NCBI RefSeq assembly: GCF_900117415.1
Contig: NZ_FPEI01000002.1
Span: 248,001-312,000, forward strand
Origin: Hyphomicrobium sp. CS1BSMeth3
GTDB lineage: Bacteria; Pseudomonadota; Alphaproteobacteria; Rhizobiales; Hyphomicrobiaceae
Length of the DNA: 64,000 bases
Direction of reading: 5' to 3'
Shown: piece by piece, positions 20,247 to 58,329 of the stretch
Layout of the letters: each line of letters starts with the position of its first letter
Numbering within the stretch: the stretch's first letter is position 1
Program-made: the position numbers and the translations under genes
Notes under the pieces: generated by a model
What the model was told of the DNA's origin: nothing
Database searches by the model: none
Seen by the model: the letters and a program-made list of their open reading frames with translations, nothing else

Positions 20247-20369
20247 TTCCCCTTCTCCCCGTCCTTCACGGGGAGAAGGTCGGGATGAGGGGCGGGAGCT
20301 GGTTGAAACGTCGGCGTTTGCCGCCGCCCCTCACCCTAACCCTCTCCCCGCACGCGGGGAGAGGGGACA
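20247..20369. repeat. RIME-like intergenic palindrome, copy 1
   Basis: A CCTTCTCCCCG...CGGGGAGAAGG hairpin is followed by GGATGAGGGGCGGGAGCT and a second CCTCTCCCCGC...GCGGGGAGAGG hairpin. It lies between the converging radical SAM and creatininase genes. The layout matches Rhizobium intergenic mosaic elements (RIME). Other copies are at 28259, 40190 and 43791. Confidence 0.8.
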
Positions 20370-21951: not shown

Positions 21952-24156
21952 ATGCTTGGTCCACCCGCCGTCGCGCGCCCGCGCGTGCCGGTGCTGCTGC
22001 CCGTTGCCCTCGACCAGACCTACGACTACGCCGTACCCGCCGGTTTGGAGATCGAGCCCGGCGATTTCGTGATCGTCCCCTTCGGGCCGCAGACCCGCAT
22101 CGGCCTCGTCTGGGACCAGCCGGTCGGGGACCAGGGCAAGCCCGTCGACGAGAAGAAACTCAAGGCCATTATCGAGCGGATGGACGTGCCAGGCCTGCCG
22201 GCCATCTCGCTGCGCTTTGCCGAGTGGGTCGGGCGCTACACGCTGGCGCCGCTCGGTATGGTCGTGCGCATGATGATGAGCGCGCAGGCGGCCTTCGAGC
22301 CGGCCAAGCCGCGCCTCGGCGTCGCGCGCGTCGAAGGGGCCGCCGAACCGCCACGCATGACGCCGGCCAGGAAGCGGGCACTGGACATTGCGGCCGACGG
22401 CCTGATCCGCGCCAAGAGTGCGCTGGCTTCCGAGGCGGCGTGCAGCGCGGGCGTGATCGATGGACTAATCGAAGCGGGCTGTCTCGTCGAGGTCGTGATC
22501 CCGGAGCGGCGCTTTCCACGTCCCGATCCCGCGCACGCGACCGTCACGTTCACGGATGCCCAGCAGGAGGCAGTCGAGACGCTGGCCGCTGCCGTCGAGG
22601 CCGGGACGTTCTCCGTCTCGCTGCTCGATGGCGTGACCGGCTCGGGCAAGACGGAAGTCTATTTCGAGGCCGTCGCGCGCACGCTCGATCAGGGACGGCA
22701 GGCACTGATCATGCTGCCCGAGATCGCGCTCACCAGCCAGTTCATGGACCGCTTCAAGGCGCGCTTCGGTGCGCCCCCGGCGGAGTGGCACTCGGCCCTT
22801 TCCGGCCCCGAGCGCGGGCGCGTGTGGCGCGCCGCAGCGACCGGCGAAGCACGCGTGATCGTCGGCGCGCGCTCGGCATTGTTCCTGCCCTATGCGGACC
22901 TCGGCCTCATCGTCGTCGACGAAGAGCACGACCCGGGCTTCAAGCAGGAGGATCGCGTTCACTACCAGGGCCGCGACATGAGCGTCGTGCGCGCGCATCT
23001 CGGCCGCGCGGCCGTGGTGCTGGCCTCCGCGACGCCTTCCATCGAAAGCCACGTGAATGCCCGAACCGGGCGCTATCGCCATCTGATCCTGCCGGGTCGC
23101 TATACCGGCGTGGATCTTCCCGAGATCACGCCGATCGACCTGCGCTCAGCGCCGCCGGAAAAAGGCCGTTGGCTTTCGCCCGTGCTGGTCGAGGCCATGG
23201 CCGAGACCATGGCCAAGCGCCAGCAGACGCTGCTCTTCCTCAACCGGCGCGGCTATGCCCCGCTCACGCTCTGCCGCTCGTGTGGCCACCGCATTGAATG
23301 CCCGCAGTGCACGGCTTGGCTCGTCGAGCACCGCTTCCGCAATCGGCTGAACTGCCATCACTGCGGCTTCTCCATGCCGCTCCCTTCCAAATGCCCGAAG
23401 TGCGGGGAGGCCGACAGCCTCGTTGCCTGCGGTCCCGGCGTCGAGCGCATTGACGAGGAAGTGCGCGAGCGTTTTCCCGAGGCGCGCATTGCGCTCCTCT
23501 CCTCGGACCTCATTCCCTCGCTCACCGAGATGCGCGACATCATCAAGCGCATCGAGGGCGGCGAAATCGACATCATCATCGGGACGCAGATCGTGGCCAA
23601 GGGCCACCATTTCCCGGATCTCTCGATCGTCGGCGTGATCGACGGCGACCTCGGCCTCGCCCAGGGCGCCGACCCGCGCGCCGCCGAGCGCACCTTCCAG
23701 CTCCTCCATCAGGTGACGGGCCGCGCCGGCCGCGCGCTCGCCAAGGGCGCCGGCTACATCCAGACGCACATGCCCGAGCACCCGGTCATGGACGCCATCG
23801 TGCGCGGCGACCGCGAGGCCTTCATCGAGCGCGAGATCCGCACGCGCCAGCTCGCCATGCTGCCGCCCTTTGGCCGGCTGGCCTCGCTGATCGTCTCGGC
23901 CCGTCATAAGGAGACCGCAGAGAGCGTCGCCCGCGACATTGCCCGGCGCGCGCCCGCCGCCCCCCGCATCGAGGTGCTCGGCCCCGCGGAGGCCCCTATC
24001 TCCGTGATCCGGGGGCGCTACCGCTGGCGCCTCTTGCTGAAGGCCCCCCGCGAGCTGGACATCCAGGCCTATCTCCGTGCCTGGCTGGCCGAGATCCCCG
24101 AGATCAAGGGCGACCTGCGCCTCACGGTCGATATCGACCCCTACAGCTTTCTCTAG
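21952..24156 (+). CDS. priA: Primosomal protein N' (replication restart helicase)
   Basis: 734 residues. The Walker A motif is GVTGSGKTEVY, DEAD-like motif VVDEEHDPGFKQED, and the zinc-binding cysteines run CRSCGHRIECPQC...CHHCG...CPKCG. The N-terminal 3'BD domain starts with VPVLLPVALDQTYDYAVP. It reloads the replicative helicase at stalled forks. The ATG at 21952 is used; a TTG at 21931 (AGGG ahead) would add seven residues. A double-palindrome element starts 3 nt after the stop. Confidence 0.95.
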   Translation: MLGPPAVARPRVPVLLPVALDQTYDYAVPAGLEIEPGDFVIVPFGPQTRIGLVWDQPVGDQGKPVDEKKLKAIIERMDVPGLPAISLRFAEWVGRYTLAPLGMVVRMMMSAQAAFEPAKPRLGVARVEGAAEPPRMTPARKRALDIAADGLIRAKSALASEAACSAGVIDGLIEAGCLVEVVIPERRFPRPDPAHATVTFTDAQQEAVETLAAAVEAGTFSVSLLDGVTGSGKTEVYFEAVARTLDQGRQALIMLPEIALTSQFMDRFKARFGAPPAEWHSALSGPERGRVWRAAATGEARVIVGARSALFLPYADLGLIVVDEEHDPGFKQEDRVHYQGRDMSVVRAHLGRAAVVLASATPSIESHVNARTGRYRHLILPGRYTGVDLPEITPIDLRSAPPEKGRWLSPVLVEAMAETMAKRQQTLLFLNRRGYAPLTLCRSCGHRIECPQCTAWLVEHRFRNRLNCHHCGFSMPLPSKCPKCGEADSLVACGPGVERIDEEVRERFPEARIALLSSDLIPSLTEMRDIIKRIEGGEIDIIIGTQIVAKGHHFPDLSIVGVIDGDLGLAQGADPRAAERTFQLLHQVTGRAGRALAKGAGYIQTHMPEHPVMDAIVRGDREAFIEREIRTRQLAMLPPFGRLASLIVSARHKETAESVARDIARRAPAAPRIEVLGPAEAPISVIRGRYRWRLLLKAPRELDIQAYLRAWLAEIPEIKGDLRLTVDIDPYSFL

Positions 24157-24159
24157 CTC

Positions 24160-24323
24160 GTGTGATGATCGAGAAATTCGCCAGATCTCGGGGCGCGGTA
24201 CCGAGCGAATTTCTCGATCTGAATCACACGAGCAAGATTATGATTCTAGTGTCCCTTTTGATTCCGAAGTTCGCTCGGGACGCCAGCATCGAGGTGGGGC
24301 GAACTTCGGAATCGGGACACTAG
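24160..24323. repeat. Double-palindrome element, copy 1
   Basis: 164 bp made of two long hairpins. Hairpin 1 has arms GTGTGAT-ATCGAGAAATTCGC and the complement, with a 23-nt loop. Hairpin 2 runs from CTAGTGTCCC to GGGACACTAG with inner arms ATTCCGAAGTTCGC/GCGAACTTCGGAAT and a 24-nt loop. Other copies are at 25212-25371 and 58166-58329. An ATG-initiated frame of 52 codons crosses this copy and ends in its terminal TAG, but is probably fortuitous. Confidence 0.9.
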
Positions 24324-24465
24324 CGGCCATCTGTCCCAGCCCTGCGGCGAACGGCTCAACGAGCGGGCCCAATACTGCCGTATTGAACGGAATTATGGCG
24401 CCGCAACAAGCATTGTTGCTCCGGGCTAAGATATCAGAATTGCTCGGAAATTATGCTTAACATAG

Positions 24466-24550
24466 CTGTCATTCGGGAGCAGTATTGTGCAACGCAATAG
24501 AGAACCCGATATGACAGTGTGAGACCGGTGCCGCCAAAGAGCACCGGCTC
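24466..24550 (+). promoter_or_regulatory. Structured 5' leader of GNAT gene (two hairpins)
   Basis: CTGTCATtCGGG (24466-24477) pairs with CCCGATATGACAG (24505-24517) and encloses an inner TATTG/CAATA stem. A second stem, CCGGTGC (24525-24531) with GCACCGG (24541-24547), follows at once. The GNAT start is 27 nt further on. This could be a cis-regulatory RNA or an operator pair. Confidence 0.45.
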
Positions 24551-24576
24551 GCGTGTGCCAACTCAAGGGGTACATC

Positions 24577-25212
24577 ATGAGCAACACAACATCGCGCGCC
24601 GTCATAGACCCTGACGACGCACCCGAGGCGCTGCAGCCCGGAACCCGCGCGATCTCGGCCGCGACCGTGCGCAAGCTTTGGCCGACCGAGGCCGAACTCT
24701 TTCGCAACCATCTGCTTCGGCTCGACAAAGACAGCCGACGGCTGCGCTTTGCGCATGGCGTGTCGGACAGCTTCATCGAGGACTATGCCGCGCGCATGAA
24801 CGACATGGGCTCGATCGTCTTCGGCTACTTCGTCGATGGCGAGATCCGCGCGGCGGCAGAGTTGCGCAAGCTCGCCGATGACTGGGGCGTGGAGGCGGAG
24901 GCCGCTTTCTCGGTCGAGCGCACCTATCAGGATCAGGGCATCGGCTCGGCCCTCATGGGCCGCGTCATCCGCTCGGCGCGCAATCGCGGCATCAGGCTCC
25001 TCTTCATGAGCTGCCTCGCCGAGAACGCGAAGATGCAGGCCATCGCCAGAAAGCACGAGGCGGATCTGCGCTTCGAGTACGGCGAGGTGATCGGCGAGAT
25101 CATCCCCGATGGGCCGGACTACTTCTCGCTCCTCGCCGAGGCCGCCGACGACCGCGTCGGCTACATGATGGCGGTTCTGGATCTCTCCTCGCGCCTCGTG
25201 AAGGCCGCCTAG
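24577..25212 (+). CDS. GNAT-family N-acetyltransferase
   Basis: 211 residues from the ATG at 24577 (AAGGGG ahead). Acetyl-CoA binding motif A is visible as AAFSVERTYQDQGIGSALMGRVIRSARNRGI, with motif B LLFMSCLAENAKMQAIARKHE. The opening (RAISAATVRKLWPTEAELFRNHLLRL) resembles protein acetyltransferase-like GNAT domains. The substrate is unknown. The stop codon TAG is the left border of a double-palindrome element, and another copy lies upstream, so the gene is bracketed by direct repeats. Confidence 0.87.
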   Translation: MSNTTSRAVIDPDDAPEALQPGTRAISAATVRKLWPTEAELFRNHLLRLDKDSRRLRFAHGVSDSFIEDYAARMNDMGSIVFGYFVDGEIRAAAELRKLADDWGVEAEAAFSVERTYQDQGIGSALMGRVIRSARNRGIRLLFMSCLAENAKMQAIARKHEADLRFEYGEVIGEIIPDGPDYFSLLAEAADDRVGYMMAVLDLSSRLVKAA

Positions 25213-25371
25213 TGTGATGATCGAGAAATTCGCCATATCAGGCGGCACGGTACCGAGCGAATTTCTCGATCTGAATCACACGAGCAAGATTATGATTCTA
25301 GTGTCCCGATTCCGAAGTTCGCCCCACCTCGATGCTGGCGTCCCGAGCGAACTTACGGATAGGGACACTAG
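25212..25371. repeat. Double-palindrome element, copy 2 (second hairpin inverted)
   Basis: 160 bp. Hairpin 1 has the same orientation and size as in copy 1. The 24-nt loop of hairpin 2 and its left arm are the exact reverse complement of the corresponding part of copy 1. The left border overlaps the stop codon of the GNAT gene. The right end reads GGGACACTAG. Confidence 0.9.
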
Positions 25372-28258: not shown

Positions 28259-28378
28259 TCCCTTCTCCCCGTCCTATACGGGGAGAAGGTTAGGATGAGG
28301 GGCGGGAGCTTGTGCGACGTTGGCATATGCCGCCGGCCCTCACCCTAACCCTCTCCCCGCAAGCGGGGAGAGGGGACA
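28259..28378. repeat. RIME-like intergenic palindrome, copy 2
   Basis: Same two-hairpin layout as at 20247. The first about 70 bases, including the flanking CGATCGCCCCGGCGTCCC, are almost identical, in opposite orientation, to the element at 40190-40298, which suggests recent copying or gene conversion. Confidence 0.8.
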
Positions 28379-43790: not shown

Positions 43791-43910
43791 TCCCCTTCTC
43801 CCCGTTCTGACGGGGAGAAGGTCGGGATGAGGGGCGGCACACATGCCGACGCTCGCGTATGCCGCTGCCCCTCACCCTAGCCCTCTCCCCGCAAGAGCGG
43901 GGAGAGGGGA
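43791..43910. repeat. RIME-like intergenic palindrome, copy 4
   Basis: CCTTCTCCCCGttctgaCGGGGAGAAGG-type hairpin, a GGATGAGGGGCGG centre, then CCTCTCCCCGCAAGAGCGGG. Same orientation as the copy at 20247. Confidence 0.8.
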
Positions 43911-58062: not shown

Positions 58063-58165
58063 TCGGGTATCTCCTCACGCTGTTTCTTTCCGATGCATTC
58101 CAGTCCCCAACACCCAAAGTTGCATATGGAGCCTGCGCGGGATGTTTCAACCGCAGGGCGCGCTA

Positions 58166-58329
58166 GTGTGATGATCGAGAAATTCGCTACCCCTCGCGGC
58201 ACGGTATCGAGCGAATTTCTCGATCTGAATCACACTAGCAAGCCTATGATTCTAGTGTCCCTTTTGATTCCGAAGTTCGCTCGGGACGCCAGCATCGAGG
58301 TCATGCGAACTTACGGATAGGGACACTAG
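58166..58329. repeat. Double-palindrome element, copy 3
   Basis: 164 bp, bounded by CTAG on both hairpins. It has the same orientation of both modules as copy 1. The right arm of hairpin 2 matches copy 2 (GCGAACTTACGGATAGGG), making copy 3 a mosaic of the other two. It lies between the divergent starts at 58062 and 58402. Confidence 0.9.

Follow-up and report, generated by a model that had tools for sequence, protein, structure and literature searches.

Among the repeat families that invite comparison with the element described here, BIME and REP sequences are high-copy, paired, inverted imperfect hairpins associated with RAYT proteins, and the RIME palindromes of Rhizobium are double palindromes of 100-odd bp from the alphaproteobacteria, likened to the present element by description only. 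The IS5, IS481 and IS701 types are DDE families that duplicate a 4-bp CTAG. For IS630 and Tc1-mariner elements, the sections of PMC2170065 dealing with ISY100 describe duplication of TA, and a study of 1991 cited there reportedly, to go by its title, describes preferential insertion at the TA in 5'-CTAG-3'. RUP of Streptococcus pneumoniae, as presented in the portions of PMC3049150 that concern it, is a short element with 110 copies in one genome and is linked to IS630-Spn1. IS630 is not mentioned in the main text of the review PMC10969869.

The present element was met in a window of 64,000 nucleotides (contig NZ_FPEI01000002.1 of Hyphomicrobium sp. CS1BSMeth3, positions 248,001 to 312,000); the genome to which the window belongs (6.02 Mb) is denoted G000, and other genomes, contigs and loci carry the prefixes G, C and L. 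RUP may be regarded as the nearest described case met with, being likewise high-copy and short with IS630-like ends and a tight fold, but in the same portions of PMC3049150 it is about 107 bp long and simple, with end repeats that pair with each other, whereas here each end folds on itself, giving a pair of hairpins joined by a linker, and scans of the element-bearing genomes found no helper in most of them. In contrast to the IS630 and Tc1-mariner insertion sequences the element lacks a transposase gene and has, in its inner arms, an insertion that alters spacing, and in contrast to BIME and REP sequences it inserts at CTAG and no Y1 enzyme was found in the element-rich genomes named below. 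The hairpins are also longer than REPs. A literature search at the level of titles and the openings of abstracts, covering part of what is in print, found no description of these repeats. By its anatomy and target the element would be filed as a non-autonomous IS630/Tc1-mariner-type MITE, a reading that is given a probability of roughly 0.8; a helper was looked for in the same genome and not found.

Structure of the copies in the window

The preliminary description recognised three copies of a double-hairpin element in the window, and all three stand, with the correction that the starts given then lay 3 bases too late (Table 1). Each copy is made up of a hairpin 1 of 76 nt, a linker of 13 nt and a hairpin 2 that measures 78 nt, or 74 nt in the case of copy 2, and a linker motif like CAAG..TATG.TT is also present in further copies. 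In copy 1, which lies behind priA (Pfam PriA_C) and has an extra CTAG immediately 5' of it at 24153-24156, hairpin 1 has a paired foot of 10 bp and a further 15 bp that enclose a 23-nt loop, the inner strand having TGA in excess, and hairpin 2 mirrors this plan with TTTT (4 nt) extra on the inner strand. When folded in silico, copy 1 is far more stable than its shuffles, none of 200 being as good, and z is -8.9 for RNA and -11.8 for DNA. The co-ordinated change of outer bases noted between copies, CTCG/CGAG in one and CTAG/CTAG in another, is real and recurrent: at the pair concerned (3-74) the 63 full-length copies considered below have A-T in 37 cases, C-G in 14 and G-C in 2, and are unpaired in 10. 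The suggestion that copy 3 combines the left side of copy 1 with the right arm of copy 2 holds only in so far as the right-arm variant TACGGATA is common to copies 2 and 3; a unique hybrid it is not, as the variant occurs at several loci, including the genomic copies L125 and L153, while L010 has TACGGATT.

Table 1. Positions in the window of the element copies, the parts of copy 1 and the gene that ends in copy 2
Feature	Position	Strand	Length	Remark
Copy 1, whole double-hairpin element	24157..24323	+	167 bp	directly 3' of priA TAG stop
Copy 1, hairpin 1	24157..24232	+	76 nt	
Copy 1, hairpin 1, outer arm	24157-24181	+		
Copy 1, hairpin 1, loop	24182-24204	+	23 nt	
Copy 1, hairpin 1, inner arm	24205-24232	+		
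Copy 1, hairpin 1, inner-arm bulge	24220-24222	+	3 nt	TGA
Copy 1, linker	24233..24245	+	13 nt	CAAGATTATGATT
Copy 1, hairpin 2	24246..24323	+	78 nt	
Copy 1, hairpin 2, inner arm	24246-24274	+		
Copy 1, hairpin 2, inner-arm bulge	24256-24259	+		TTTT
Copy 1, hairpin 2, loop	24275-24298	+		
Copy 1, hairpin 2, outer arm	24299-24323	+		
GNAT acetyltransferase ORF	24553..25212	+		stop codon is the TAG of copy 2
Copy 2	25209..25371	+	163 bp	
Copy 2, hairpin 2	25298-25371	+	74 nt	loop inverted, no bulge
Copy 3	58163..58329	+	167 bp	both hairpins with CTAG feet

Copy number and distribution

The hairpin-1 arm GATCGAGAAATTCGC has 98 + 106 matches in the genome with no more than one mismatch, while the reversed pattern, used as a control, has 0 + 0, and the genome therefore holds about 100 copies. 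A similarity search, in which the best 40 of 149 candidates were scored, gave at least 41 long matches in the same genome. From the DNA fetched, 63 distinct full-length copies were recovered and these form the set for the per-copy counts given here, a set that leaves out copies split by BLAST; window copy 2, in which hairpin 2 is inverted, is one of those left out. The left foot is CTAG in 39 of the 63 (CTCG in 14) and the right foot in 52. A length of 167 bp, about 100 copies, no transposase gene and ends of the form CTAGTGT../..ACACTAG are together what is expected of a MITE. The closest pair of copies is 95.2% identical and the median nearest neighbour 90.5%, and since even the closest copies reach only 95% identity no recent movement is evident.

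The three copies first noticed have thus become about 100 in the genome, and the search among relatives found the element in 47 of 103 genomes of the bacterial family (34 of 76 if only those of good quality are counted). In a wider sample of relatives, which included the genome itself, 20 of 60 had the element and other families of the order had none (0/24). No match was found in the phage and plasmid sequences searched, nor in viral contigs, where the search was for exact 25-mers only. For this repeat family, members of which often lie on stop codons, a target rule and a probable helper are now available.

Insertion sites and target

The preliminary description took the repeats for a mobile family, and empty sites, patchy presence and reconstruction of the target all back this view. 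Copy 1 is missing from the orthologous place in G003 and G004, and G002 has a longer stretch of unaligned DNA at that place. Copy 2 is missing from its own orthologous place in G001, G002 and G004, where TGA closes the acetyltransferase gene; the TAG that does so in the window is supplied by copy 2. When the joined flanks of 40 own copies were searched against four genomes of the same genus, 114 matches were obtained, and 70 of these loci, picked by hand and mostly spanning the junction, were inspected. The script scored 62 of the 70 as readable empty junctions, 1 as filled and 7 as unusable, so that an uninterrupted site was found in same-genus relatives at 26 of the 40 queried insertion sites. 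The element is present at a shared site in L397, the one scored as filled, and, on reading, in L398, L399 and L401. From the empty and filled orthologous sites it follows that the insertions are partly common to members of the genus and partly private, and a natural set of filled and empty alleles is available. At L371 (G004:C4, about 480482-480619) the site of L204:16914 has only ..AATCGGGACACTAG, which resembles a right-arm remnant.

The preference for CTAG is a statistical signal across junctions. CTAG was the best of the 256 tetranucleotides as a junction word, with a mean rank of 0.22 (0.215 per site) where chance would give 0.5; its rank was worse than the chance level in 11 of the 62 junctions, and the fit was better with CTAG added in 51. 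The tetranucleotide itself is retained in just 9 of the 62 empty junctions (8 of the 26 sites), and the net length difference is most commonly +4 (14/62) and is negative in 15. At the site of L139, G003 and G004 have CTAG and G002 has ATAG; at that of L028, G003 has CTAG. Copy L013 has GTAG as its left foot and CTAG as its right, the same place being GTAG in G001, G002 and G003 and CTAG in G004, and at L236 a CTAG foot has been entered by a member of a second double-hairpin family, with feet CTAA/TTAG, so that the junctions read C-TA...TA-G. By L013 and this nested insertion only, TA within C-TA-G is favoured as the duplicated unit over a 4-bp CTAG, which could fit most copies too. No target duplication outside the feet was found in the 63 copies. 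CTAG is depleted on contig C4, with 150 observed against 1158 expected from base composition. Beside the 63 copies 46 gene 3' ends were called, of which 27 lie no more than 10 bp away or are open into the element (17 open); ordinary CTAG sites on contig C4 have flanks that are broadly alike, and no preference beyond CTAG is claimed.

Relationship to IS630 elements

IS630-family transposase genes from the same bacterial family were examined at 19 loci for TA-flanked inverted ends. Accepted ends were found at 7 of these, all flanked by C-TA-G; four pair at 14 of 16 bases, and those of G006, G009 and G114 pair at 11-12 of 16, which is no more than some chance pairs attain. The G006 element has ends of the form C-TAG-TGTCC.. 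and that of G003 has C-TAG-TGTCG../C-TAG-TGTTC.., and both transposases have DDE_3 and HTH (helix-turn-helix) domains; the IS630 elements of G010, G031, G009 and G114 likewise lie at C-TA-G. IS630 ends, among them those of G006, G003, G010, G031 and G009, were compared with 155 MITE outer arms over the 18 positions beyond the shared TAGTGT, with 1000 shuffles. For the left end of the G006 element the best arm is a hairpin 2 outer arm, of the type found in copy 1, with 16 of the 18 positions alike, and for its right end a hairpin 1 outer arm with 14 alike; for the left end of the G003 element it is that of hairpin 1 in G028, with 15 alike. In none of the three cases was any of 1000 shuffles as good. 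Weaker matches were obtained with the right end of G003 (11/18, 21 of 1000 shuffles as good) and the left end of G009 (12/18, 4 of 1000), and the seven remaining ends tested were at chance against the 155 arms. The elements of G010, G031 and G009 were accordingly set aside as end matches, their ends being at chance level except for the left end of G009. In ungapped comparison with the G006 and G003 ends the outer arms match at 15-22 of 24 positions and the inner arms at just 8-12 of 24, the low value for the inner arms being due to the inner-strand insertion.

An IS630-type transposase was thus probably the mover of these copies, as judged from sequence likeness, and the best-matching element, that of G006, belongs to a different genus. 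A profile search (control positive in 3 of 14 genomes) gave no DDE_3 match in the own genome, and DDE_3 was not found in 9 of 10 element-bearing genomes scanned, the own genome included. In the own genome no IS630 transposase exceeded the cut-off, the only match being to HTH over 38 positions (E 5e-4), and no relative of the G006-type enzyme was found at E 1e-20. That enzyme occurs in 11 of the 103 family genomes. The MITE is present in 8 of these 11 and in 39 of the 92 genomes that lack the enzyme, an association that is positive but not significant (Fisher p = 0.11). The simplest reading would be that a helper arrived, moved the elements and was then lost.

On the reading as an IS630-type MITE, a transposase acting in trans would recognise the outermost 24 bp or so of each end, that is the outer arms of hairpins 1 and 2, excise the whole 167-bp unit and insert it at the TA of a C-TA-G-like site, and duplication of the TA would leave both feet reading CTAG. 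With CTAG rare in the genome and TAG serving as a stop codon, copies would come to gather between genes and on stop codons, often providing a new stop. The two hairpins would have arisen by duplication of each end inward as an inverted copy, and an insertion of 3-4 nt in the inner copies would alter their spacing relative to an IS630 end, a shift by which probably only the outer arms function as ends. Occasional copying of an arm within a hairpin, by template switching, may then have given rare flipped hairpins that have no bulge. That ordinary MITEs need no double hairpins counts against this reading.

Conservation of the folded shape

Two traits of the element are unusual: each end is folded back as a hairpin whose inner strand has a bulge of 3-4 bases, and such a geometry outlasts changes in the letters of the stem. 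In an alignment of 18 divergent members from 14 genomes, which were picked by hand and include two of the second (CTAAAGC) family, with the structure taken from one sequence, 36 of 50 base pairs have changed on both sides. Cells changed on both sides number 119 against 24.9 in shuffles, with 0 of 500 reaching 119 and relatedness uncorrected. If the partners are slid, at most 26 such cells are obtained, and with the real pairing 94.8% of cells pair. Within the 63 own copies, 54 cells are changed on both sides and 39 on one side, and 100 are broken. A script found the bulge on the inner side only in 60 of 63 hairpins 1 and 48 of 63 hairpins 2, the other 15 being unmatched by the pattern. Correction of quasi-palindromes could give rise to paired changes, but it would be expected to erase the inner bulge too, and the bulge is kept. 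Retention of the bulge in spite of paired changes in the stem suggests either that the shape is under selection or that a few master copies were amplified.

It is possible, if doubtful, that the element represents an IS630-type MITE superfamily in which the folded shape and not the letters is conserved, with two hairpins built on a plan of 10 bp, an inner-strand bulge, 15 bp and a loop of about 23 nt, stems rewritten to suit the ends of each transposase, and a bulge that disables the inner ends. Were this so, the element would depend on a structure with which classical cut-and-paste MITEs can dispense, and its use might lie in transposition from a folded strand or in silencing of the element in transcripts. 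Shape is here kept through compensatory change across many lineages in what is apparently a derivative of a DNA transposon, and the concrete question raised is whether the hairpin serves transposition or shields host transcripts from the insertion.

Flipped hairpins

The preliminary description reported that hairpin 2 of copy 2 carries the exact reverse complement of the loop and adjacent arm of copy 1. The outer arm and loop of copy 1 are indeed present there as their reverse complement, but it is not a clean inversion, as the TTTT bulge is absent from both sides and both arms are of the outer, bulge-less type. Hairpin 2 of L235 is like that of copy 2, with an inverted loop and no bulge, and the degenerate hairpin 1 of L127 is reversed and also bulge-less; hairpin 1 of L030 is the opposite case, with two arms of the inner type. 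Among the 63 full-length own copies, the loop of hairpin 1 is forward in 53, inverted in 1 and undecided in 9, and that of hairpin 2 is forward in 59, inverted in 1 and undecided in 3. A general ability of hairpins to flip as units, which had been proposed, does not emerge from 1 + 1 inverted loops in 63 copies together with window copy 2. The one-sided copying of arms instead suggests template switching within the palindrome.

Alternative explanations

That hairpin 2 is a programmed invertible module, flipping as a phase switch, is scarcely credible. It would account for the reversed hairpin 2 loops in window copy 2 and L235 and the reversed hairpin 1 in L127, but inverted loops make up only 1 + 1 of the 63 copies (12 loops being undecided, and the full-length rule behind this count itself excluding certain inverted copies, window copy 2 among them), and the flipped hairpins of L235, window copy 2 and L127 are without the inner bulge that a reciprocal inversion would keep. 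Movement as REP/BIME-like palindromes, with a RAYT or other Y1/HUH enzyme reading bulged hairpins on a single strand, is very improbable even though the element, in its two inverted hairpins, its conserved foot and its asymmetric bulge, has a BIME-like outline and the shape is held while stem letters vary. The preliminary description had considered such an enzyme; there was no Y1_Tnp match in the own genome or in G001-G004, G006, G010, G011, G018 and G029, and a search of 36 genomes (control positive in 5 of 14 genomes) did not find a Y1 transposase in 31, the element-bearing G007 having one match. The CTAG target and the match to IS630 ends do not fit such a mechanism either.

A mover from one of the DDE families with a 4-bp CTAG duplication (IS5, IS481 or IS701 type) in place of IS630 is quite unlikely. 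CTAG feet on both sides, taken alone, look identical under either model, and the failure to find an IS630 helper in the own genome would agree with such a mover; however, the GTAG/CTAG feet of L013 and the nested CTAA/TTAG element fit TA better, and the IS630 ends match the element, each end to a different hairpin. It is also unlikely that the hairpins are kept primarily for a role in RNA, as terminators, RNase III sites or protection of 3' ends, with mobility secondary. The strong covariation, the very stable RNA fold and the 27 of 46 called gene 3' ends close to or open into the element would all be in keeping with this, but the CTAG target accounts for the location at stop codons, ordinary CTAG sites on C4 being similarly flanked, and an Rfam scan of the window gave 0 matches above the gathering score. 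Copies 1 and 2 contain no terminator-like site, and no promoter or terminator beyond chance was found near them.

Related forms

Hairpins were also thought to move as modules, which is true in part: in the own copy L024 (803-969) hairpin 1 is of the standard kind, but the hairpin 2 joined to it matches, over its first 28 bases, that of L042 from another genome, and forms with a single hairpin exist. These single-hairpin forms, of 73-74 bp, occur at L045, L047, L056, L060, L063, L068, L079, L093, L114 and L153, and consist mostly of a left outer arm and a right outer arm, some having two hairpin-1 outer arms. The copy at L060 lies on a contig of a Brevundimonas-labelled MAG and may reflect a binning error.

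Tandem direct copies with a common CTAG foot were read directly at L201:1926-2254 in G011. They have one CTAG in common, like the two tandem copies of the IS630 element in G006, which have one CTAG between them. At G068:C70:70-496 and C39:16621-16950 tandem arrays are suggested by match coordinates that overlap by 4 bases. The second double-hairpin family, whose members are 165-166 bp long, have the feet CTAAAGC/GCTTTAG and resemble the first in their linker, is represented at L236:1587-1751, L195:11928-12093 and L198:15678-15842, and one of its copies is nested within an element of the first family. A separate repeat is found in the window at 20251-20365, 28261-28374 and 43794-43908 and elsewhere on contig C4. 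It consists of short G+C hairpins, CCCTCTCCCCG..CGGGGAGAGGG and CCTTCTCCCCG..CGGGGAGAAGG, two or three per set, and some sets have a TGAGGGGCGGCG... hairpin in between.
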